From positions 1-22,459 of IMG/VR virus record IMGVR_UViG_3300006108_000533: a DNA stretch of 22,459 nucleotides. One strand, given 5' to 3'. The translations under genes and the position numbers were made by a program. The stretch's first letter is position 1. Each line of letters opens with the position of its first letter. This document shows, in pieces, positions 3,274-19,720 of the stretch. Under the pieces are notes generated by a model. It searched no databases and was not told the origin of the DNA. It saw only the letters and a list, made by a program, of their open reading frames with translations. Source of the stretch: a virus.

Positions 3274-3350
3274 ACTCCTGTAGAACAATTGGTCAGTTCT
3301 CGCTGCTCATAACAGCGCGGTTACAGGTTCGAGTCCTGTCAGGAGTACCA
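3274..3350 (+). tRNA. tRNA-Met (anticodon CAT)
   Basis: A full 77-base cloverleaf with encoded CCA: acceptor ACTCCTG/CAGGAGT, D stem GAAC/GTTC, anticodon stem CGCTG/CAGCG around CTCATAA, and T arm ACAGG-TTCGAGT-CCTGT. The CAT anticodon could be elongator Met or Ile2 (after lysidine modification). The GGTTACAGGTTCGA stretch looks more like elongator Met. A1-U72 and the D arm are not those of a canonical bacterial initiator. It begins one base after the stop of the oxygenase gene, so it must be processed from that mRNA. Confidence 0.93.
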
Positions 3351-4983: not shown

Positions 4984-4995
4984 GTGGAGAACAAA

Positions 4996-5700
4996 ATGAC
5001 CGTGATTAGATTTAATCCTGATGAAGTTTTTAATACTGACAGTACCGAGTATGAGATTCTAGTAGACGCAGTTCCTGTTATCAAAGGTGTTGAGGGCGCT
5101 GTAGTTGAGATCGGTACTCGCCGCGGCGGATCGGCCAGAATGGTCATGGACTGTTTAGAGCACAGCGGTGATACTAACCGATCGATGTTCTGTATCGATC
5201 CATATGGAAACATCGATCTCGAGATCACAAACATCAATGCATCTATTCACTATCCTGGTAAACATCAGGTAGAAGGTGATCCGATGTCTAAAGATGTTTC
5301 ATTTTCAACGAAGTTTGATTACACAAACACGATGCGAAATAGAGTAATTCCATCTCTATACTACTATGGTTTCTCTAAAGGACTTAACTTTACTTTCTTC
5401 TGTCTTGAAGATACTGAGTTTTTTGCTCGCTATCCGGACGGTGTTCCAGTGTATGACGAAGAAAAGAAGTTAGAAGATAAGTTCGCGTTCGTCTTCTATG
5501 ACGGTCCCCACACCAATCAGGCTGTGATCGATGAGCTAAATTATTTCTTGCCAAAGTCACCGGTAGGGTCAGTCTATGTGTTTGACGATATCTGGATGTA
5601 CGACCACGATATGATTGAGAGAGACTATCTCTTCATTAATGGATTTGAGACCCTTCGAAAAGGAAATGTGAAGGCATCTTATGTCAGAAAGATCAAGTAA
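4996..5700 (+). CDS. SAM-dependent methyltransferase (Methyltransf_24/TylF-like)
   Basis: 234 residues from the ATG at 4996. An in-frame GTG exists at 4984, but GGAG at 4986-4989 sits correctly for 4996. The Rossmann motif I is VVEIGTRRGG (about 36-45), motif II-like FCIDPYGN follows at 65-72, and FVFYDGPHTN (166-174) and YVFDDI (194-199) resemble the metal-assisted catalytic loops of small-molecule and sugar O-methyltransferases. The gene lies between the ClpP-like protease and the nucleotide-sugar genes, so a sugar or glycan substrate is plausible but not shown. The end overlaps the next gene by 20 bases. Confidence 0.78.
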   Translation: MTVIRFNPDEVFNTDSTEYEILVDAVPVIKGVEGAVVEIGTRRGGSARMVMDCLEHSGDTNRSMFCIDPYGNIDLEITNINASIHYPGKHQVEGDPMSKDVSFSTKFDYTNTMRNRVIPSLYYYGFSKGLNFTFFCLEDTEFFARYPDGVPVYDEEKKLEDKFAFVFYDGPHTNQAVIDELNYFLPKSPVGSVYVFDDIWMYDHDMIERDYLFINGFETLRKGNVKASYVRKIK

Positions 5701-5972: not shown

Positions 5973-6089
5973 ATGTGGAAGAGTGATCTAGAAATTTTAG
6001 TAGAGAATGATATGGCTTCGAAGGGATATGATCCTAAGTTGATCACGTCCATTAGAGAGTATTGGGAGGCGTATTTCAATGGCTATTGA
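5973..6089 (+). CDS. Small hypothetical protein, 38 aa
   Basis: A short ORF starting MWKSDLEILVEN and ending EYWEAYFNGY. GGAG at 5963-5966 lies six bases before the ATG at 5973, and the stop overlaps the glutaredoxin start (6079) by 11 bases. The end of this ORF also contains the GGGAGG ribosome site of the glutaredoxin gene. The good ribosome site, promoter and overlap support it as coding. Function unknown. Confidence 0.6.
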   Translation: MWKSDLEILVENDMASKGYDPKLITSIREYWEAYFNGY

Positions 6090-6351
6090 GATCTATTCAA
6101 AAGACGGTTGTCCTAACTGTGTGAAGGCTAAGCAGCTGTTAAACACACACGGTAAAGATTTCTTTGAGTACAAGCTTAATGAAGACTTTACTCGAGAGAT
6201 TCTTCTATCAAAGTTTCCAGAAGCTAAGACTTTCCCGGTGATCGTCATCGATGGTATGAATATCGGTGGCTATGAGCAGCTGTTCAAGTGCATCACCGAA
6301 GAGAGACTAGACAATCGCAAGCTTCTAGTTGAAGACTATTTTGGAGCTTAA
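6079..6351 (+). CDS. Glutaredoxin
   Basis: 90 residues with the thioredoxin-fold layout: IEIYSKDGCPNCVKAKQLL with the CPNC redox pair at about 11-14, cis-proline segment TFPVIVIDG (about 51-59) and GGYEQL (63-68) for glutathione binding. It would pass electrons from glutathione, most likely to a ribonucleotide reductase. T4 encodes the similar protein NrdC. It is part of the operon with the DUF2693-like protein and sugar cassette. CPNC rather than the common CPYC is within the range seen in phages. Confidence 0.92.
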   Translation: MAIEIYSKDGCPNCVKAKQLLNTHGKDFFEYKLNEDFTREILLSKFPEAKTFPVIVIDGMNIGGYEQLFKCITEERLDNRKLLVEDYFGA

Positions 6352-6352
6352 A

Positions 6353-6631
6353 ATGACTGTTAAATATGATCGCGACGTACTCTTAAACGATCTCACTGAA
6401 AACGTGTGTGAGGTCTATTTTACTAAAGTGAATGGTGAGAAGAGAGCTATGAGATGCTCGCTTCGTCCGGACGTGCTTCCTGAGTCTTATACGAACTCAG
6501 AAGCGCCAAAGGTGAAAGATTTTCATACGCAGAATAAAGACGTACTTGCGGTATGGGATCTGCAGAACGCAGGTTGGAGATCGTTTCGCGTCGATTCTGT
6601 AGAATACGTACAGGTGATAGATAACTACTAG
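6353..6631 (+). CDS. SH3-like barrel protein, DUF2693-like
   Basis: 92 residues from the ATG at 6353, one base after the glutaredoxin stop. A longer in-frame start at 6329 lacks a ribosome site, while GGAG at 6343-6346 fits 6353. The pattern VYFTKVNGEKRAMRCSL, DVLPESY, then LAVWDLQNAGWRSFRVDSV matches the DUF2693 family of small phage beta-barrel proteins. These are common in T4-like phages, function unknown. The position among core nucleotide-metabolism genes does not define a role. Confidence 0.78.
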   Translation: MTVKYDRDVLLNDLTENVCEVYFTKVNGEKRAMRCSLRPDVLPESYTNSEAPKVKDFHTQNKDVLAVWDLQNAGWRSFRVDSVEYVQVIDNY

Positions 6632-6641
6632 AAAGATAAAC

Positions 6642-7064
6642 ATGATAGTAGGTATAACTTTTGGGGCGTTTGATCTTCTACACGTAGGTCACATCGCCAT
6701 GCTTACAGAAGCAAGAGATAATTGTGACTGGCTTAATGTTGGTCTACATACTGATCCGACTGTAGATAGACCCTACTCAAAGAACAAGCCCTCTCAGACT
6801 GTATTTGAGAGATATGTTCAGCTTAGCGCACTCAAGTGTGTGGATAATATTATCCCATATGACACAGAAAAAGATCTAGTCAATATATTATCTTTGCTAG
6901 ATCTTCAAAAGAGGTTTATTGGCGCTGACTATTCTGATAGGAATAAACCAATAACTGGCATAGATATCTGTAAAATTAGAAATATCGATATAGTATTCTT
7001 AGACAGATACCACAGCTATTCAACTACAGAACTGAGAAACAGATGTGCAAAGCCGTATTTTTAG
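6642..7064 (+). CDS. HxGH nucleotidyltransferase (heptose-phosphate adenylyl- or glycerol-phosphate cytidylyltransferase-like)
   Basis: 140 residues, the length of a single cytidylyltransferase-fold domain. The first motif is TFGAFDLLHVGHI (6-18) with H14 and H17; the last is STTELRNR (127-134), the ISTT-like signature closing the nucleotide site. The family includes TagD (CTP plus glycerol-3-P) and the C-terminal half of HldE (ATP plus heptose-1-P). The following phosphatase, kinase and isomerase genes favour heptose-1-phosphate as substrate. No ribokinase-like half of HldE is fused; instead a GHMP kinase is present at 8579. It overlaps the phosphatase gene by 22 bases. Confidence 0.82.
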   Translation: MIVGITFGAFDLLHVGHIAMLTEARDNCDWLNVGLHTDPTVDRPYSKNKPSQTVFERYVQLSALKCVDNIIPYDTEKDLVNILSLLDLQKRFIGADYSDRNKPITGIDICKIRNIDIVFLDRYHSYSTTELRNRCAKPYF

Positions 7065-7603
7065 ATAAAGATGGTGTAATCAATAGTCTAGTGCTAAGAT
7101 CAGACGGCAGAATGACTTCACCATGGACGCTCGCTGAATTTAAAGATAGACTATATCCACATGTCAAAGAATCGATTACACGATTAAAAGACATGGGCTT
7201 TTCTGTGTTCGTAGTGACAAATCAGCCTGGCGTATTAGACGGTGAGATGTTTATAGTAGAGCTTGACTCTATCTGCGAATATCTTGAAGAAGAACTAGGT
7301 GTGAATCACGTGTTATACGCGCTTAAGAAAGATACTAATCTTTATAAGCCAAACACGGGTATGATCGACTCACTCATGCGCATCTATGAGATCAATTCTC
7401 AGGGTAGTTATATGATCGGTGATAGATGGAAAGACATCGTTCCAGGAAACAAGTGTATGCTGACGACAATACTAGTCGGTAACGAACACGCGTATGATCC
7501 ACCAGAAGAATATATAGATATGAGTGAACCTTATCATGTCGCGTCGGATTTAGCCGCCGCAGTTGCTATAATTGAAATGGAGTTTAAGAATGGCGTTCGT
7601 TGA
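7043..7603 (+). CDS. HAD phosphatase, GmhB-like (heptose-1,7-bisphosphate 7-phosphatase candidate)
   Basis: 186 residues with all HAD motifs: FLDKDGVIN (D8, D10), VVTNQPGV (T59), K102 in YKPNTGM, and GDRWKDI (D127, D131). The DKDGVIN/TNQ/KPxxGM/GDR combination is that of GmhB and histidinol-phosphatases. The zinc-binding cysteines that precede KPxxGM in standard GmhB are absent (the stretch is ALKKDTNLYKP). It may therefore be a zinc-free variant or have a shifted substrate. In the heptose pathway it would remove the 7-phosphate after the kinase step. It overlaps the gene upstream by 22 bases and the glycosyltransferase by 14. Confidence 0.82.
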   Translation: MCKAVFLDKDGVINSLVLRSDGRMTSPWTLAEFKDRLYPHVKESITRLKDMGFSVFVVTNQPGVLDGEMFIVELDSICEYLEEELGVNHVLYALKKDTNLYKPNTGMIDSLMRIYEINSQGSYMIGDRWKDIVPGNKCMLTTILVGNEHAYDPPEEYIDMSEPYHVASDLAAAVAIIEMEFKNGVR

Positions 7604-8582
7604 AGAAAATGAAATCTCTGCTAAGTCTCACGGCGGCACTGAGATTACAAAGAGAAGCATCGGTAAGTATATTCCTGAAGAGCTAGGAAAAGAATTTCAG
7701 ATCGTGCCTTCTCGTATTAGAGATCTAGAAGAAGATAAGATTAGAATCTATTGGGCTCACGACCTCGCTCACGATCCTGAGTGCGCGCACTTTAAAGAAG
7801 AAAACAGCAGAAATCGTTTTCATAAGATGGTGTTCAGCTCTAACTGGCAGCTTCAGGAGTTTAATAATAGACTCGGTATCCCGCTAGACTCAAAGGTTCA
7901 GGTCATTGAGACCCCGGTCGAACCTATTGAGCTCGTAGCAAAAGATCCAGATAAAGTAAATTTGATCTATTTCTCTACCCCACAACGCGGTCTAGAACTG
8001 TTGATTCCTGTAGTAGACGCGCTAGCGCAGAAGCACAAGAACGTTCATCTTGACGTGTTCTCTAGTTTTAAGATCTACGGCTGGGACGAGGCAGATCAGC
8101 ACTTTGAACCCCTGTACGACAAAATTCGCAACCATCCAAATATGACATACCACGGCTTTGCCCCGCAGGAGAAGCTTAAAGAGCATATTCAGAAAGCGCA
8201 TATTCTTGCCTACCCGTGCGTATGGCCTGAGACGTCTTGTAGGGTACTAATTGAATCGATGTCTGCTGGACTACTTGCAGTTCATCCAAACCTAGCCGCG
8301 CTTCCTGATACTTCTGGTGGTACGACGTTCATGTATCAGTTTAGTCAGAAGCCAGAAGAGCACGCACAGACGTTTTATAAGTACCTTGACAAGGCTATTC
8401 AGGAGGTGAATAACCCTGATCTTCAGAACTATATGAAGTTTGTTAAGGCATATGCTGATACGCGATTCAATCTAAAGAAGATAAGCGCGCAGTGGGAGTC
8501 ACTCATGCTTGAGCTGAGAGAACAGTATCCTACCGCAGAGTCTAGAAAGACCCCATCAGAGATGTTTACGTATAGAACATGA
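7590..8582 (+). CDS. GT-B glycosyltransferase (GT4-like)
   Basis: 330 residues from the ATG at 7590, chosen because GGAG at 7579-7582 is well spaced; the in-frame ATG at 7572 is not. The N-terminal SHGGTEI (13-19) is the glycine-rich acceptor-side loop. The C-terminal nucleotide-sugar site is typical: VNLIYFSTPQRGLELL (123-138), FAPQEKLKEHIQKAHILAYP (190-209) and PETSCRVLIESMSAG with the EX7E pair E214/E222. It is embedded between the genes that would make its donor sugar, so the cassette both makes and transfers a sugar. The acceptor (DNA base, virion protein, LPS) is not evident. There is no signal peptide or membrane anchor. Its stop overlaps the kinase start (ATGA). Confidence 0.86.
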   Translation: MAFVEENEISAKSHGGTEITKRSIGKYIPEELGKEFQIVPSRIRDLEEDKIRIYWAHDLAHDPECAHFKEENSRNRFHKMVFSSNWQLQEFNNRLGIPLDSKVQVIETPVEPIELVAKDPDKVNLIYFSTPQRGLELLIPVVDALAQKHKNVHLDVFSSFKIYGWDEADQHFEPLYDKIRNHPNMTYHGFAPQEKLKEHIQKAHILAYPCVWPETSCRVLIESMSAGLLAVHPNLAALPDTSGGTTFMYQFSQKPEEHAQTFYKYLDKAIQEVNNPDLQNYMKFVKAYADTRFNLKKISAQWESLMLELREQYPTAESRKTPSEMFTYRT

Positions 8583-9553
8583 TCGTAACAAAAACACCAC
8601 TCAGAATCTCCTTCTTTGGAGGAGGTTCTGACATTCCACAGTTCTATGAGAACAACGAGGGAATGGTCGTATCTACAGCGATTAATAGCTACATATATCT
8701 GGCTGTTAATCGCTGTGTCGCAAATCATATCAGGGTCATCTATTCGGTACTAGAGCAGACCGATAAATTAGAAGACGTTAAACACGACAGGGTCAGAGAG
8801 ACTCTTAAACATTTTGAATTCCCATCAAACATTGAGATAGCGTCGTTCTCAGACGTTCCCACCAAAGGAACGGGACTAGGGTCTTCGTCCACATTTACTG
8901 TAGGACTAATAAACGCTGTCTATAGAATCATACACAACAAGAACATAGATCACAAAGAGCTCGCTGAACTTGCTTCGTACATCGAGATAGTAAGATGCAA
9001 TGAACCAATCGGCAAGCAGGATCAGTATGCGGCTGCTTATGGCGGGTTTAATACGATATACTTCCACGGCAATGAGACTAGAATTAAGCCTGTAGATATC
9101 GATCCAAGCGCCATGTATGAGCTCGATAGTAATCTACTAGCTTTTAACACCGGCATAAACAGACAAGCTTCTTCTGTTTTAACAAAACAGGTTGAAAACT
9201 TAAAGAACAACGTCAATATAGAGCAGACGAAGTCTATGGTAGAACTAGCTAAGACGTCTGTTAAACTGCTGCAAAAGAAGAAGATAGATGACTTTGGAAG
9301 TCTACTTGATCAGGGCTGGCAGATAAAGAAGAAGTTGTCAGATAACGTAAGTAATCCGCATATCGATGAGATGTATGACAAAGCCATGCGTAACGGCGCG
9401 CTTGGTGGAAAGATTCTAGGCGCAGGTGGAGGTGGATACTTGCTAGTCTATGTTCCTGATAAATACAAGAATAGAGTGAATGAAGCTATGAAGCAGCACG
9501 AGAGATTTAAGTTCAGGTTTGCCAAACATGGATCTACTCTGGAGACTATTTGA
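8579..9553 (+). CDS. hddA: GHMP kinase, D-glycero-alpha-D-manno-heptose-7-phosphate kinase (HddA-like)
   Basis: 324 residues. N-terminal TPLRISFFGGGSDIPQFY (6-23) is the sugar-binding start of HddA/fucokinase-type GHMP kinases. GTGLGSSST (97-105) is the ATP-binding motif 2, GKQDQYAAAYGG (145-156) is a conserved HddA segment, and GGKILGAGGGGYLL near residue 280 is motif 3. HddA phosphorylates heptose-7-phosphate at C1 to give the alpha-1,7-bisphosphate used in GDP-heptose synthesis. GmhA-like and GmhB-like neighbours match this pathway, but no HddC-type guanylyltransferase is in view. Fucokinase-like specificity is an alternative, less likely given the neighbours. Confidence 0.88.
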   Translation: MIVTKTPLRISFFGGGSDIPQFYENNEGMVVSTAINSYIYLAVNRCVANHIRVIYSVLEQTDKLEDVKHDRVRETLKHFEFPSNIEIASFSDVPTKGTGLGSSSTFTVGLINAVYRIIHNKNIDHKELAELASYIEIVRCNEPIGKQDQYAAAYGGFNTIYFHGNETRIKPVDIDPSAMYELDSNLLAFNTGINRQASSVLTKQVENLKNNVNIEQTKSMVELAKTSVKLLQKKKIDDFGSLLDQGWQIKKKLSDNVSNPHIDEMYDKAMRNGALGGKILGAGGGGYLLVYVPDKYKNRVNEAMKQHERFKFRFAKHGSTLETI

Positions 9554-10137
9554 TGTTTAAAGAATATCAGAAGATGATTGACGAGGCTCTCGATACGGTC
9601 GATGAAGTCGTATTAAAAACTGTAACAGACCACATCGTAGAATGCGCTAAACAAAGAAAACAAATCCTCACAATCGGTAACGGTGGATCAGCGGCTATCG
9701 CAGAACACTGGTCGTGCGACCATACTAAGGGCGTCGGTGAAGACACGTACATCTGGCCAAACGTCACTAATCTAGCAAGCAACATGGCTCTAATGACCGC
9801 GATCGCTAACGATATGAGTTATGAGCAGGTGTTCTCTAAGCAGATCGAGTATCACCAGTCAGACCTAGCCACGGTAGTTGCTATTACTTCTTCAGGTAGC
9901 TCTCCGAACATCATTAAAGCTCTAGAGCAGGCAAAGTATGAAGAGTATACCACCATCGCGTTCGTCGGATTTGATGGCGGTCAGATTCTAAGAAGAAATC
10001 TTGCAGATCATATAGTTCATGTTAAGTCTAATAACTATGGCGTCGTTGAAGACTGTCATCAGATCCTAATGCATGCCATGGCTCAGTATATGAGAAAGCA
10101 GTTTACAGTAAAGGATTTAAAGAGCTTAAAACTATGA
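9553..10137 (+). CDS. gmhA: Sedoheptulose-7-phosphate isomerase (GmhA-like, SIS domain)
   Basis: 194 residues from the ATG at 9553, which shares its A with the kinase stop (TGATG); GGAG lies at 9541-9544. The SIS-fold signatures are GNGGSAAIAEHWSCDHTKG (42-60), AITSSGSSPNIIKAL (110-124) and GVVEDCHQILMHAMAQ (163-178), where the last matches the conserved glutamate/histidine catalytic helix of GmhA. GmhA turns sedoheptulose-7-phosphate into D-glycero-D-manno-heptose-7-phosphate, the first committed heptose step. Supplying this step means the phage can draw heptose directly from the pentose phosphate pool. It overlaps the next gene by 4 bases. Confidence 0.9.
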   Translation: MFKEYQKMIDEALDTVDEVVLKTVTDHIVECAKQRKQILTIGNGGSAAIAEHWSCDHTKGVGEDTYIWPNVTNLASNMALMTAIANDMSYEQVFSKQIEYHQSDLATVVAITSSGSSPNIIKALEQAKYEEYTTIAFVGFDGGQILRRNLADHIVHVKSNNYGVVEDCHQILMHAMAQYMRKQFTVKDLKSLKL

Positions 10138-10775
10138 TTAGAAATCTATGGGAAACTAATCTTCTTTACGAAAAATACGCTGCAGAAGTTACACCTGAAT
10201 TTATAAAGGATATAATAGATATTGGCGAAGAGTATGAATCTCTTCACCCTGAGGCGCATCTACCAAAAGAGATGCGTAAAAATCCAGAAACTTCTTATAA
10301 TCTATTGTCCGATCCTCGTCCTTCTTGTCAACTATTTAAGAAGATGCTAAAAGATCGCATGCTAGAGATGGCTAAATCTGAAGGATTCTTTGATCCAGAA
10401 AAAATAGTGTTTGAAGCAATTACTAATTTAAGAAAGTTTAAGCATTTACAGTATTCTAAACCACATACACATAGATCAGTGGACTACGTAGCAGTTCTGT
10501 TCGTGCAAGTAGGAGAATGCCTTACTAAAGAAGGTGAAAAAACACATCAAAAGATGGCAGGAAACCGTCTCCATCTCTTAGATCCTATACCACAGCGTAG
10601 TAGATATCTTAATCACAACATGTTACACGCTATAAGACCATATGCTGGTACTTTTATTATACACCCAGCATATGTATTTCACACTACAGAGTTAAACTTC
10701 TCTCACACAGATCTACTAGCACTAGTAACTAATATCAAAGTCGTAGACGACGTAAGAAACTATGAAAGACTATAA
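10134..10775 (+). CDS. Putative DSBH (2OG-Fe(II) oxygenase-like) protein
   Basis: 213 residues, translationally coupled to gmhA (ATGA). The C-terminal half has a cupin/DSBH pattern: SKPHTHRSVDYVAVLFV (108-124; H111, H113 and D117 as ligand candidates), RLHLLDP (145-151) and GTFIIHPAYVFHTTEL (172-187; distal H183). This resembles the phage oxygenase family with pHtH, G-x-L-x-x-x-DP and FP-x-x-x-H segments. The arginine that normally binds 2-oxoglutarate after the distal histidine is not obvious (FSHTDLLALV). It is more A+T-rich than the genes before it. Placement at the end of the heptose cassette suggests it may act on the sugar product or acceptor, but this is speculation. Confidence 0.65.
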   Translation: MIRNLWETNLLYEKYAAEVTPEFIKDIIDIGEEYESLHPEAHLPKEMRKNPETSYNLLSDPRPSCQLFKKMLKDRMLEMAKSEGFFDPEKIVFEAITNLRKFKHLQYSKPHTHRSVDYVAVLFVQVGECLTKEGEKTHQKMAGNRLHLLDPIPQRSRYLNHNMLHAIRPYAGTFIIHPAYVFHTTELNFSHTDLLALVTNIKVVDDVRNYERL

Positions 10776-10816: not shown

Positions 10817-11197
10817 ATGAGCAACAATGTAATCCTCTTTCCAAAAGAAAATAAGAATCTAAGTAGGATGATCTCTATAGATGAGATCGACCACAACGTC
10901 GAGCAGATGAATCTCTATCACATTCAAGAGACCATCGCCACCATCATTCCAATTATCTTTACTCATCTGGACATCGCTGGGTTTTATCCAGACGAAGAAG
11001 ATCTAGAGACAGATATCAAGGACGGGGCTTTCTTCGTAGAGGCTCTACGATCGATGTTGTGTAAACACTATGATATATATCATCCGTTTCAGAAAATAAC
11101 TGAAAATATATTCTTAGACGATGCGGATGAAGAGGGTGCTCTTAAGATAGCAGATAGTATAACTATAGATCTGAAAGAACACAAAAGCGAGGAATAA
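10817..11197 (+). CDS. Conserved-type phage hypothetical protein, 126 aa
   Basis: 126 residues beginning MSNNVILFPKENKN. The middle contains a hydrophobic helix (ETIATIIPIIFTHLDIAGF, about 38-56), too interrupted for a clear membrane span, followed by acidic segments (PDEEDLETDIKDG, DDADEEGA). The VILFPK start recurs in unknown proteins of T4-like phages. It is the first gene after the 10.8-kb promoter and has no Shine-Dalgarno sequence, so it may be translated from a leaderless transcript. It is followed after one base by the RNase H gene. Function unknown. Confidence 0.72.
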   Translation: MSNNVILFPKENKNLSRMISIDEIDHNVEQMNLYHIQETIATIIPIIFTHLDIAGFYPDEEDLETDIKDGAFFVEALRSMLCKHYDIYHPFQKITENIFLDDADEEGALKIADSITIDLKEHKSEE

Positions 11198-11198
11198 A

Positions 11199-12059
11199 GT
11201 GATTATCGTCGATTTGAATCAGGTGATGCTGTCCAATCTTATGGTTCAGCTTGGTAACCATCTAAATGCCCACGTGGAAGAGGCGATGGTTAGACATATG
11301 GTACTAAACTCCATACGCTCGTATAAGCAGAAGTTCTCAGCAGAGTATGGAGAACTGGTAATAGCGTGTGACAACACCAACTACTGGCGCAAGCAGCTGT
11401 TTCCATACTACAAGGCTAACCGTAAGAAAGCCATAGCCGAGTCAGAATTAAACTGGAAAGATATCTTCGAGTGCATGAACAAGATCAGGGCTGAGCTCAA
11501 AGAGTTCTTTCCTTATAGGGTAATAGACGTTGAGTCTGCTGAGGCTGACGACATTATTGGCACTCTCGTGGCTGAATTTGGTCAGAATATAAATACCGGT
11601 ATGAAGATCCTCATCCTATCAGGAGATAAAGATTTTATACAGCTTCATAAGTTTGCTAATGTTAGTCAATATGATCCAGTCAGAAAGAAAGTCATTAGCC
11701 ATAATGATCCGGATAGGTTCTTAAGTGAGCATATCATGAAGGGTGATGCTGGCGATGGTGTTCCAAACGTACTCTCAGACGATAACTGTTTTGTCGTCGG
11801 TACGAGGCAGAAACCAATGACCGCTAAAAAGATGGAGCAGCTATTAAATAGTATTCCGGGAAAAGACTACGACGAGAAAACATATCGCAACTTCTGTCGT
11901 AATAGACAACTTATCGATCTAAGTTACATCCCAAACGAAATCAAAGAAAAAGTATTGAATCAGTACAATGAGCAGGTCGGTAAAGATCGCTCAAAACTAA
12001 TGAATTATTTTATAGTCAACAAGCTAAAGAACCTAGCTGAATACATCAGTGAATTTTAA
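11199..12059 (+). CDS. rnh: T4-type RNase H / 5'-3' exonuclease (FEN family)
   Basis: 286 residues starting with GTG after GAGGAA. The FEN-family acidic metal ligands are visible: D5 in IIVDLNQ, D58 in VIACDNT, ESAEADDII (112-120), LSGDKDF (140-146), and the helix-3-turn-helix GDAGDGVPNVLS (182-193). In T4 this enzyme removes RNA primers and adjacent DNA from lagging-strand fragments, working with gp32 and the clamp. The replication link fits the gp44/gp62 genes at the window end. The length is near the T4 protein (about 305). The next gene starts 10 bases downstream after AAGGAGA. Confidence 0.92.
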   Translation: MIIVDLNQVMLSNLMVQLGNHLNAHVEEAMVRHMVLNSIRSYKQKFSAEYGELVIACDNTNYWRKQLFPYYKANRKKAIAESELNWKDIFECMNKIRAELKEFFPYRVIDVESAEADDIIGTLVAEFGQNINTGMKILILSGDKDFIQLHKFANVSQYDPVRKKVISHNDPDRFLSEHIMKGDAGDGVPNVLSDDNCFVVGTRQKPMTAKKMEQLLNSIPGKDYDEKTYRNFCRNRQLIDLSYIPNEIKEKVLNQYNEQVGKDRSKLMNYFIVNKLKNLAEYISEF

Positions 12060-12486: not shown

Positions 12487-12679
12487 ATCGACTTTGAAGA
12501 AATTTAGAAAGAATGACTTCAGCGAGAATGAAGAGTTTAATCATTCGACGAGTGCGTATCTCGTAAAGAGAAAAGAAAAAAGAGTAGAGCACGCTCTTCG
12601 CACTAAGAACATCGATGAGCTTCTAGAAGCTGAAGACGATTACAACGAAGAATACGACAAAGATTGGTTTGAAAAGTAA
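12479..12679 (+). CDS. Small charged hypothetical protein, 66 aa
   Basis: Highly charged: a basic first half (STLKKFRKND, VKRKEKRVEHALRTK) and an acidic tail (LLEAEDDYNEEYDKDW). No membrane segment or signal peptide. It overlaps the previous gene by 8 bases and shares a base with the next start (TAATG). The basic/acidic split suggests a nucleic-acid- or protein-binding adapter, but no family is recognised. Confidence 0.68.
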   Translation: MSKSTLKKFRKNDFSENEEFNHSTSAYLVKRKEKRVEHALRTKNIDELLEAEDDYNEEYDKDWFEK

Positions 12680-12906
12680 TGCCTATTTACAGACTACTTA
12701 ACACACAGACACAAGAAGAGTGGGAAGAGTTCATGACGATCTCTGAGATGGAAGCAAAGATCGAGAAGTACCCTCACGTTCAAGTTCTCATCAACGGCGC
12801 ACCTATGGTCGTTGGCACGATGGGAAAGAATTCTCACATGGCTAAGAAGAAGCCGCTCGACGCGACTTCTATAAAGAAACCATATCTAGACTCGACGAGC
12901 GTTTAA
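12679..12906 (+). CDS. Small phage protein, first of a tandem paralogous pair
   Basis: 75 residues. MPIYRLLNTQTQEEWEEFMTISEMEAKIEKYPHV aligns with the next protein's MPTYKFLNNDTGEEYEEFMSISALDTYLDENPNV, and both continue with a NGAP motif. The fold start resembles FmdB-type small proteins but without the zinc-ribbon cysteines. The C-terminal halves differ: this copy ends in a lysine-rich tail and lacks the KPDAGFRDLL segment of its sister. It likely arose by tandem duplication and divergence. The stop is directly followed by the ATG of the second copy. Confidence 0.75.
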   Translation: MPIYRLLNTQTQEEWEEFMTISEMEAKIEKYPHVQVLINGAPMVVGTMGKNSHMAKKKPLDATSIKKPYLDSTSV

Positions 12907-13149
12907 ATGCCTACTTACAAGTTTCTAAACAATGACACCGGTGAAGAGTATGAGGAGTTCATGTCGATCTCCGCACTTGATACGTATTTGGATGAAAATC
13001 CAAATGTCACTCAACTAGTAAACGGAGCTCCTTTGATCTCTTCTGGCAGAGGTATGGCAAAACCCGACGCGGGTTTCCGTGACTTGCTTAAAAATATTAA
13101 GAAAGAGCATTCTAAAGGTTTTACAAGGAGCACCGTGAATACGTTTTAG
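12907..13149 (+). CDS. Small phage protein, second of a tandem paralogous pair
   Basis: 80 residues. It shares the N-terminal MPTYKFLN/EEFMSIS/NGAP pattern with the preceding gene and continues with GMAKPDAGFRDLLKNIKKEHSKG and a TVNTF end. That C-terminal pattern recurs in a family of about 80-residue proteins of T4-like phages, so this copy appears to be the ancestral form. Like its sister it has no zinc-ribbon cysteines. Function unknown. It begins immediately after the stop of its paralogue, with only a weak ribosome site. Confidence 0.77.
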   Translation: MPTYKFLNNDTGEEYEEFMSISALDTYLDENPNVTQLVNGAPLISSGRGMAKPDAGFRDLLKNIKKEHSKGFTRSTVNTF

Positions 13150-17445: not shown

Positions 17446-17883
17446 TCACGTGGATATGCTATTTATACTAATAAATTTTCTATCCTCGTCGGTAGAAAAT
17501 ATTACTTTTTTAATTTTAAAATGACTTATGGCCTGCTTACAGCCGGGACACGGCTCAGAGTAACCATCTACCCAGTCAATCGAGTCTTTTGAACGTCTTT
17601 TAACTCTATAAACGTAAAGAGTAGCTTTACACAACTTATCGGCATCGACATGTCTAAGAGCGTTGATAATACAGTCTACCTCCGCGTGCTTAAATATAGA
17701 CTCTATGTGCTTTGAGAATCTCTTCTGGAGTGGGTGAGACTTATAAGAATTCTGGCCAATAGATATTATATCGTTACGAACGACTATGCACGCAGCGAGT
17801 TTTGCTCTAGTCTGCGAGTCGACGTTATCTATGGCTAGTCTTCTTACGAAGGCCATATGCTTCTTATCTTTGGAAGTAATCAT
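17446..17883 (-). CDS. Deoxycytidylate/cytidine deaminase family protein
   Basis: 145 residues from the ATG at 17883 (a GTG 24 bases further up is also open). The zinc site is complete: HAEVD (H66, E68) and PCPGC (C112, C115), with ACIVVRNDIISIGQNSY (31-47) as the preceding strands. dCMP deaminases supply dUMP for dTMP synthesis, fitting a lytic phage with its own ribonucleotide reductase. The insert RVKRRSKDSIDWVDGY before PCPGC differs from standard dCMP deaminase, so another base or nucleotide is possible. Its start overlaps the stop of the amidinotransferase-like gene (TAATG). The late-type box for the holin-like gene lies in its last codons. Confidence 0.82.
   Translation of the reverse strand: MITSKDKKHMAFVRRLAIDNVDSQTRAKLAACIVVRNDIISIGQNSYKSHPLQKRFSKHIESIFKHAEVDCIINALRHVDADKLCKATLYVYRVKRRSKDSIDWVDGYSEPCPGCKQAISHFKIKKVIFSTDEDRKFISINSIST
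17460..17467 (-). promoter_or_regulatory. T4-late-type promoter box TATAAATA
   Basis: A complete TATAAATA on the minus strand inside the last codons of the deaminase gene. The start of transcription would be near 17453, about 38 bases before the holin-like ATG at 17415, which carries AAGGAG. This is the best-placed late promoter in the window because it precedes a lysis-like gene. Confidence 0.6.
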
Positions 17884-18674
17884 TAGTCCAGATGCAGTAC
17901 CAGGCACTTACATGCGCCGCCAGACTTCATGAATTCTGACATGTCAAACTCATGGACGGTATAGTTCAGCGTGTTTCTTAGTATATTTGCTACAGGCTTA
18001 CACTTAGGCATGAATATGTTTTCACCGACTACTACCGCGTTGCAGCAGAAAGTCAATGCCTCTTCTTCAGTGACATCTACAGCAGTATCAAAGTTATTCG
18101 TGATAAATTTTCTGCTATTCTCATCGAAGGCTTCTGGATAATACAGCACTTCGCCGTTATTCAGCGGGCAGAAACACGTGTCTAGATGATAGAAACGCGG
18201 GTCCACTAGCTTTAGAGGCATGTTGTCTATATCAAAAGAACTAAGCACGCCGTGAAACTCTTGACGAGTTCTGAAGCCGTGTGAGATATATTGATAAGGA
18301 TATTCTTTGTCTCTTAGACAGTCTCCCTCACCCTCGAAGTTGTGTTTGCCCTGCTCTATTACGTTCCAGCCGTTCTTCAGGAACCATTCTCTAAAATACT
18401 TCTCTTCTTTCTGTCTCTGGCTGTGCGCAAATCTAGAGAGAAAAAACTTGTTGTTCACTACTAGACCGGCGTTGGCGGTGAACACCATGTCCGGTAGACC
18501 CGGTACCGGATCTATGAGTCTAACGACGGCGACCCTGCTGAGTGCATTATATAGATCTGTCCACTGTGACAAGGCCTTATCAGAATTTACGTTTCCGATT
18601 TGATCTTCCATCCATGGGTTAATCACATAGTCCACACCAAATAGGTCCGGACTGCACATCAGCAGCTGCGCCAT
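17883..18674 (-). CDS. Amidinotransferase/dimethylargininase (DDAH)-like hydrolase
   Basis: 263 residues with the guanidino-group modifying superfamily layout: MCSPDLFGVDYVINPWM (6-22), LPDMVFTANAGLV (60-72), NFEGEGDCL (112-120), FYHLDTCFCPL with catalytic H163 (161-171), and a C-terminal SGGACKCLVLHL where C257 is the likely nucleophile (GGxxxC). Relatives hydrolyse dimethylarginine or arginine to citrulline, or transfer amidino groups. It seems intact. A phage copy could provide ammonia or ornithine precursors, disarm an arginine-derived signal, or alter modified arginines. The gene is coupled to a 38-residue membrane protein upstream and the deaminase downstream. Confidence 0.85.
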   Translation of the reverse strand: MAQLLMCSPDLFGVDYVINPWMEDQIGNVNSDKALSQWTDLYNALSRVAVVRLIDPVPGLPDMVFTANAGLVVNNKFFLSRFAHSQRQKEEKYFREWFLKNGWNVIEQGKHNFEGEGDCLRDKEYPYQYISHGFRTRQEFHGVLSSFDIDNMPLKLVDPRFYHLDTCFCPLNNGEVLYYPEAFDENSRKFITNNFDTAVDVTEEEALTFCCNAVVVGENIFMPKCKPVANILRNTLNYTVHEFDMSEFMKSGGACKCLVLHLD

Positions 18675-18790
18675 TAATTACCACCATCTAGCATGTTTAA
18701 ATCACCGGCGATAAAACCAATCGTCATCATTAAAAGAACGAACACGACCATTCGAAATATTGCCTGCCTGCGTAGAAGATCTTCATTCAT
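18674..18790 (-). CDS. Small single-span membrane protein, 38 aa
   Basis: A short ORF MNEDLLRRQAIFRM followed by a hydrophobic stretch VVFVLLMMTIGFIAG and a short tail. AAAGGA lies 7 bases before the ATG at 18790, and its TAA shares a base with the ATG of the DDAH-like gene (TAATG). The basic residues before the span predict a cytoplasmic N-terminus. It begins 18 bases downstream of the tRNA-Thr, from whose primary transcript it may be released. Confidence 0.6.
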   Translation of the reverse strand: MNEDLLRRQAIFRMVVFVLLMMTIGFIAGDLNMLDGGN

Positions 18791-18808
18791 GATATATCCT
18801 TTGAGGAG

Positions 18809-18884
18809 TGGTGCTGCTGGAGAGATTCGAACTCCCGACCTAGGCATTACTAATGCCTTGCTCTGCCAGCTGAGCTACAGCAGC
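18809..18884 (-). tRNA. tRNA-Thr with unusual anticodon AGT
   Basis: A complete 76-base cloverleaf with encoded CCA: acceptor GCTGCTG/CAGCAGC, D stem GCTC/GAGC, anticodon stem AGGCA/TGCCT around TTAGTAA, T arm GGGAG-TTCGAAT-CTCTC. The anticodon is AGT, read for Thr codon ACT. G1-C72, C2-G71 and G35-U36 fit threonine identity. Bacteria normally use GGT, TGT or CGT for Thr and keep A34 almost only in tRNA-Arg(ACG), so this is odd. It lies between the proline-rich secreted gene and the 38-residue membrane gene. Confidence 0.92.
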
Positions 18885-18890
18885 TTACTC

Positions 18891-19235
18891 TTAAAAACAA
18901 ACTCTTACATACATATAGTCTACTACAGTACCATACACAGGATCTACTAGAGGCTGCGCCCTCTGCATGCGACAACGTGGAATATATCCTGGCATCGCTG
19001 ATGCTGGTACTGCGACGACTGGTGCCGGAACTGGATAAGGTTGTGGTACTGGAACTGGTACCGGCACTTGTTTTACGATTGTCCTATTCTTAACTATAGT
19101 CTTACGCTCTACGACTCGACGATTGTCGATGTAGTTGTATTGACCAATATCTGGATCGATCATTAGATCTCCATTAGCGCTAGCCGCAGAGGTCAGAGCT
19201 AGAATAGAGAACGCAGTCAAGAATAACTTTTTCAT
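18891..19235 (-). CDS. Secreted proline/valine-rich protein, 114 aa
   Basis: The start at 19235 is chosen because MKKLFLTAFSILALTSAASA is a clean signal peptide; the open frame goes further back but over the neighbouring gene. After a basic stretch (RRVVERKTIVKNRTIVKQ) comes a PV-repeat linker (VPVPVPVPQPYPVPAPVVAV, about 58-77) and a compact end with two cysteines (PRCRMQRAQ...VRVCF) that could form a disulfide. A rigid proline linker in the periplasm is reminiscent of spanins and TonB-like spacers. No family recognised. It follows the Gly/Tyr-rich gene by one base and is followed by tRNA-Thr. Confidence 0.75.
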   Translation of the reverse strand: MKKLFLTAFSILALTSAASANGDLMIDPDIGQYNYIDNRRVVERKTIVKNRTIVKQVPVPVPVPQPYPVPAPVVAVPASAMPGYIPRCRMQRAQPLVDPVYGTVVDYMYVRVCF

Positions 19236-19644: not shown

Positions 19645-19720
19645 TGGCTCCCCGACTTGGACTCGAACCAAGGACCAAGTGATTAACAGTCACCTACTCT
19701 ACCAACTGAGCTATCGGGAA
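19645..19720 (-). tRNA. tRNA-Asn (anticodon GTT)
   Basis: A 76-base cloverleaf with encoded CCA: acceptor TTCCCGA/TCGGGGA (one T-G pair), D stem GCTC/GAGT, anticodon stem GGTGA/TCACT around CTGTTAA, T arm CTTGG-TTCGAGT-CCAAG. Anticodon GTT specifies Asn. It sits in the gap between the zinc-ribbon-like membrane protein and the promoter of the secreted pair. Confidence 0.93.

Follow-up and report, generated by a model that had tools for sequence, protein, structure and literature searches.

A T4-like phage locus predicted to make an activated heptose and transfer it by a conserved GT4-type glycosyltransferase

The window analysed here is a stretch of viral DNA of 22,459 nucleotides (IMG/VR record IMGVR_UViG_3300006108_000533), and its subject is a block of five genes at 6642-10137 built around a glycosyltransferase (GT) of the early region. 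This block is probably a glycosylation cassette that makes an activated heptose and transfers it, with the conserved GT4-type GT at its centre; the assignment extends to the cassette and its pathway, not to the acceptor. The window is 100% identical over its full length to positions 25570-48028 of a 125.5-kb IMG/VR contig, G001, which encodes T4-like gp43, gp41, gp61, gp44, gp46, gp47, gp55 and gp17. By its gene content, the source phage is T4-like.

The enzymes of the locus

The five open reading frames (ORFs) all lie on the + strand at the coordinates given in the preliminary description, and successive genes overlap by 22, 14, 4 and 4 nt. The same gene order is found again in independent contigs at 60-90% identity, so it is not due to chance. 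The core motifs are intact across the cassette enzymes, and profile matches uphold, at the family level, the earlier assignment of the products to an HxGH nucleotidyltransferase (NT), a GmhB-like phosphatase, a GT4-like GT, an HddA-like kinase and a GmhA-like isomerase.

The NT (6642-7064, + strand), a predicted heptose-1-phosphate nucleotidylyltransferase, matches PF01467 (6.8e-12), phrog_7878 (1.9e-28) and TIGR02199 (70 bits against a cut-off of 181.5), and has the motifs HVGH at residue 14 and STTELR at residue 127. Since its relatives include cytidylyltransferases too, the predicted product is named simply as a nucleoside diphosphate (NDP)-heptose. The second gene (7043-7603, +) encodes a HAD-IIIA phosphatase with intact HAD motifs, a predicted GmhB-like heptose-1,7-bisphosphate 7-phosphatase whose sole solved relatives found in the PDB are D,D-heptose-1,7-bisphosphate phosphatases. 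The GHMP kinase (8579-9553, +) is HddA-like, matching the GlMnHpPKinHddA model NF049969 (7e-48; 163.8 bits against a cut-off of 600) and carrying the motifs GLGSSS and GAGGGG; its best solved relatives are heptose-7-phosphate-kinase-like (PDB 4usm, 3k85 and 4n3o). The last gene (9550-10137, +) encodes a SIS-domain protein, a predicted GmhA-like sedoheptulose-7-phosphate isomerase (NF010546, 1.1e-29), and its best solved relative is the phosphoheptose isomerase of C. jejuni (PDB 1tk9, 1.5e-21).

The GT (7590-8582, +), which is the conserved core of the locus, is a retaining-type GT-B enzyme with Glycos_transf_1/Glyco_trans_1_4 domains and a match to phrog_2170 (1.3e-42). Its homologues begin at the ATG equivalent to 7590, rather than at the TTG at 7572 used previously, and 7590 is probably the true start. 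The EX7E motif reads ETSCRVLIE. An AlphaFold model (pLDDT 92.1, pTM 0.89) compared by Foldseek returned many nearly tied GT4 enzymes, with TarM, SdgB, SenB and HepE at the top. With both the predicted fold and the EX7E motif present, the enzyme is a GT4-like GT-B transferase. These near-equal matches act on different acceptors, so that of the window's GT cannot be read from the fold. The GT has no sequence similarity to the T4 alpha- and beta-glucosyltransferases (AGT and BGT), neither of which is among the top 50 Foldseek matches, and Pfam gives only Glycos_transf_1-type domains, not the Glyco_transf_9 domain of the GT9 heptosyltransferases WaaC and WaaF of lipopolysaccharide (LPS). Charge is uninformative as a sign of DNA binding; the GTs have a median of about -6, and T4 AGT is acidic as well.

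A predicted hybrid pathway and its distribution

The pathway would begin with the GmhA-like isomerase converting sedoheptulose-7-phosphate to heptose-7-phosphate, which the HddA-like kinase would phosphorylate to heptose-1,7-bisphosphate. The HAD phosphatase would then take off the 7-phosphate and the HxGH enzyme would convert heptose-1-phosphate to NDP-heptose. The sugar, perhaps O-methylated, would finally be transferred by the GT. The enzyme specificities, the anomer and the nucleotide in this scheme are those suggested by family membership. A methyltransferase dependent on S-adenosylmethionine that is encoded upstream (4984-5700, +; PF13578 1e-9, PF05711 5.4e-5) is of the sugar O-methyltransferase type (Methyltransf_24/TylF/CmcI) and may tailor the heptose. 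Many related contigs encode a relative of it within or next to the GT block, and in other contigs TylF-type and other methyltransferases recur at this place, which suggests an O-methylated sugar. In one GT locus that has no NT (L069, 8577-9536, +), an AdoMet-decarboxylase-like domain is fused to a TylF-type methyltransferase.

Gene counts are based on 85 non-redundant complete intervals around related GTs. In 21 of these, the cassette includes a transaldolase (PF00923, 1.5e-39), every time together with NT, isomerase, GmhB, GT and kinase. The product of transaldolase is sedoheptulose-7-phosphate, from which the predicted pathway starts, so this gene provides independent backing for the heptose assignment. 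The kinase is present in 67 intervals and the isomerase in 68, almost always as a pair. In bacteria, genes related to that of the kinase have GmhA, GmhB, epimerase and HddC-type genes as neighbours. The transaldolase, the pairing and the bacterial neighbours all favour the earlier proposal that the phage encodes the making and transfer of an activated heptose. The pathway, however, is not the textbook one, since a kinase of the GDP-heptose type is mixed with an NT of the ADP-heptose type.

The GDP-heptose (hdd) pathway, including C. jejuni Cj1423-1425, has a GmhA isomerase, an HddA-type GHMP kinase and perhaps a GmhB-type phosphatase in common with the window, but in the phage loci its RmlA-type HddC is replaced by the HxGH enzyme. 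The ADP-heptose (hld/gmh) pathway of LPS likewise has an HxGH NT (of the HldC/HldE-C type), GmhA and a GmhB-like phosphatase, while the window's kinase belongs to the GHMP family rather than the PfkB-type HldA/HldE-N, and the window has no HldD-type epimerase. The phage pathway is thus predicted to be a hybrid of an HddA-type kinase and an HldC-type NT. This pairing is unusual: of 80 bacterial kinase loci, 53 show the HddC-type motif GGxGTRL and only 1 is matched by the HxGH model, and the motif is missing from all 76 of the phage kinase loci. No ORF with GGxGTRL is present in contigs G1-G6.

Several points weigh against this assignment. All NCBIfam matches to named heptose enzymes score under the curated equivalog cut-offs, so they back the assignment at the family level, and specificity is inferred from there. 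The Cys-rich zinc loop (CxH/CxC) of E. coli GmhB is missing from the phosphatase. HddA-type kinases make the alpha-1-phosphate (PMC10680097), whereas HldC-type enzymes use the beta form (PMC7993394), so the two may be mismatched unless one of them has shifted its specificity.

IMG/VR contains at least 586 relatives of the GT and at least 273 of the kinase. The most frequent order in the intervals is NT-isomerase-GmhB-transaldolase-GT-kinase (21/85), followed by NT-epimerase-GT-kinase-isomerase (20/85), the GT alone (16/85) and the order of the window, NT-GmhB-GT-kinase-isomerase (9/85). In 16 of the 85 intervals (L029, L002, L005 and others), the gene right after that of the GT or isomerase encodes phrog_11903, a protein of about 365 amino acids with no Pfam match; it was not found in G1-G5 and is not an obligatory partner of the GT. 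In alphaproteobacterial T4-like phages, the GT lies between glutaredoxin and RNase H. This synteny is seen in Caulobacter phage Cr30, Sinorhizobium phages phiM12 and phiN3 and Rhizobium phage RHph_I1_18, and glutaredoxin adjoins the GT block in Cr30, phiM12, phiN3 and Stenotrophomonas phage DLP6. In Cr30 this region contains isomerase, kinase, epimerase, GT and NT, while in phiM12, phiN3 and RHph_I1_18 the GT, flanked by RNase H on one side and by glutaredoxin or its neighbour on the other, comes with no heptose genes. The GT is also kept in DLP6 and in Ochrobactrum phage OC. The annotation of Vibrio phages that match the NT does not show the cassette.

On the GT tree, GTs without donor genes require about eight changes, at least six of them forced by well-supported branches. 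The GT of G003, which is 71% identical to that of the window and has zero donor genes, nests within the window's own clade. The GT is therefore the stable element, around which the donor block has been gained or lost repeatedly.

Candidate acceptors

Also to be set against the proposed cassette is that the sequence itself gives no pointer to the acceptor. The conservation of the GT, in sequence and position, among phages whose hosts differ widely, even where hydroxymethylation genes are not detected, suggests an acceptor that is either phage-borne or universal among hosts. A phage-borne target other than DNA, most simply a virion protein, is the tentative first choice, ahead of the host envelope and then DNA. 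The preliminary description took the lack of a membrane anchor in the GT as a sign of dedicated phage use; this argument does not hold, since LPS is built by cytosolic GTs too and the missing anchor does not discriminate.

Possible, if somewhat doubtful, is that the GT acts from the cytosol to heptosylate the LPS core or a different envelope glycan, altering the receptor and blocking superinfection. The bacterial kinase relatives, with their GmhA, GmhB, epimerase and HddC-type neighbours, are arranged like surface-polysaccharide clusters, for example that of the C. jejuni capsule (PMC10680097), a study of pelagimyophages proposed the same role for their GTs and rfaE-like genes (PMC7029224), and the varying methyltransferase and epimerase content would fit an arms race over surface sugars. 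However, the sequence and place of the GT are conserved in phages of Caulobacter, Sinorhizobium, Rhizobium, Ochrobactrum and Stenotrophomonas, bacteria that differ in their surface glycans. The gene also lies among those of nucleotide metabolism, away from the tail fibres, and by Pfam its product is not a GT9 LPS heptosyltransferase.

DNA as acceptor, an option that the preliminary description had also raised, depends on modification genes elsewhere in the genome. At 53515-54165, 5.5 kb past the end of the window, G001 encodes a dCMP hydroxymethylase (HMase) with 61.7% identity to T4 gp42 (PDB 1b49, 1.1e-88). The HMase belongs to a module (50449-54165, L369) together with a C5-cytosine-methyltransferase-like protein and a protein of 364 amino acids (phrog_14998) that is predicted to fold most like T4 BGT. 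The module is conserved in IMG/VR, with the C5-methyltransferase in 37 and the HMase in 32 of 38 loci, and is apparently a DNA hypermodification system with no named GT family. The slot between gp46 and gp45/gp44 swaps whole modules among close relatives, being of the HMase type, of the Tet_JBP/TAGT type or empty; in G002, Tet_JBP and TAGT (44780-46935, L046/L047) occupy the place of the G001 module. Cr30 gp129 is a Tet_JBP dioxygenase, although its annotation reads 'SNF2 DNA repair protein', and the DNA of this phage is probably hypermodified. Cr30 gp122 is TAGT-like, under the cut-off, and its gene lies beside that of an inositol-1-phosphate synthase (L006, record 55518-60681).

With such genes at hand, the GT might place heptose on a 5-hydroxymethyl-pyrimidine or extend an existing sugar, shielding the phage genome against restriction and CRISPR in the way that arabinose acts in RB69; the phage-made donors of RB69 and Thanatos provide a precedent (PMC6024577, PMC12838424). 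Besides the gp42 homologue of G001, Tet_JBP and/or TAGT are found in the heptose-positive G002, G009, G010, G011, G014 and Cr30, and in the window's closest clade G1, G2 and G4 carry both modules while G3 carries neither. The heptose genes also lean weakly towards phages with DNA hydroxymethylation (11/15 against 1/5; Fisher p 0.11, not significant, with relatedness uncontrolled and incomplete contigs among the genomes compared), which tells against a non-DNA target. However, the HMase operon holds its own T4-BGT-like enzyme, and the GT resembles T4 AGT or BGT neither in sequence nor among the top Foldseek matches. The two sets of genes are also separable both ways, which rules out a strict link: G012, G013 and G033 have the heptose cassette with neither HMase nor JBP detected, G044 has HMase and GT but no kinase, and the GT is present in phiM12, phiN3, RHph_I1_18 and OC, where neither HMase nor Tet_JBP is detected. 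Given the separate BGT-like enzyme and this separability, heptosylated DNA is not favoured and seems unlikely, and the same applies to its variant, in which heptosyl-hydroxymethylcytosine, or heptose on the sugar added by the BGT-like enzyme, would arise from a fully phage-made, possibly O-methylated NDP-heptose. The G001 phage group very probably does modify its DNA, but with another glycosyltransferase, as its genes suggest.

Least likely is that the heptose labels mislead and the cassette makes another sugar, such as a pentose or hexose derivative: the low scores and the many substrates of the GHMP, SIS and HxGH families would allow it, but isomerase, kinase and phosphatase are each closest to characterised heptose enzymes and transaldolase joins the cassette.

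Neighbouring genes and relation to known systems

The locus is bordered upstream by glutaredoxin (6079-6351, +; PF00462, 1.7e-12) and a small conserved protein, phrog_1086 (6329-6631, +), which is present in 76 of the 85 intervals and whose phiM12 equivalent is annotated as DUF2693. Downstream, a 2OG-Fe(II) oxygenase-like gene (10134-10775, +; phrog_81, 1.5e-10) overlaps the isomerase gene by 4 nt; it is found at this place in 1 of the 85 intervals, that of the window's strain and not its relatives. A conserved acidic protein of 126 amino acids (10817-11197, +; 76/85 intervals), which has no PHROG match, and a homologue of T4 RNase H (11199-12059, +; PF09293, PF02739; T4 rnh 2.3e-46) complete the landmarks. 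Elsewhere in the window, two adjacent short ORFs of similar sequence (12679-13149, +; 'MPIYRLLNTQT..' and 'MPTYKFLNNDT..') are tandem paralogues. An arginine dihydrolase/dimethylargininase-like gene (17883-18674, - strand; NF052232, 4e-85), unusual for a phage, overlaps a dCMP-deaminase-like gene (17446-17907, -; phrog_174). There are genes for tRNA-Met (3274-3350), tRNA-Thr (18809-18884) and tRNA-Asn (19645-19720); the ORF at 18693-18950, which overlaps the tRNA-Thr gene on the opposite strand, is probably spurious.

Cr30 is the closest annotated system, with gp006, gp008-gp010 and gp178 recorded as isomerase, D,D-heptose 7-phosphate kinase, GT, epimerase and NT. Its isomerase, kinase and GT are 39-48% identical to those of the window and stand in the same order near glutaredoxin, and its NT is 42% identical. 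Unlike the window, it has an SDR epimerase beside the GT in place of NT and GmhB, its NT adjoins RNase H on the other side, and it has phrog_11903 and the Tet_JBP/TAGT module. RB69 (arabinosyl-hydroxymethylcytosine) and Shewanella phage Thanatos (pentosyl-cytosine) are T4-like, as the window's phage is, and have donor genes, a SIS-type isomerase in RB69 and a pyrophosphorylase in Thanatos, beside GT candidates (PMC6024577, PMC12838424). Their sugar is a pentose, however, their enzymes are of other families, and their genes are tied to the DNA-modification region, whereas the window's block lies apart from the HMase module. T4 glucosylation of hydroxymethylcytosine (gp42 with AGT and BGT) resembles G001 in having the gp42 homologue beside a BGT-like fold, but the GT4-like enzyme of the window is encoded elsewhere in the genome.

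Phage-made glycosylation donors (RB69, Thanatos) are already known, and the annotations of Cr30 and other phages include single heptose genes. No paper describing the complete modular heptose locus was found in a literature search that had most subscription papers outside its reach. The searchable literature offers few examples of a phage that makes its own sugar donor; the locus described here is common. The predicted non-canonical heptose pathway, in which an HddA-type kinase would feed an HldC-type enzyme, is open to direct assay, and Cr30 with its host Caulobacter crescentus CB15 provides a cultured system for locating the acceptor. The locus is a fixed transferase whose donor pathway is swapped, lost and rebuilt, one version making its own sedoheptulose-7-phosphate, and this turnover around a fixed GT implies that the choice of sugar is under strong selection.

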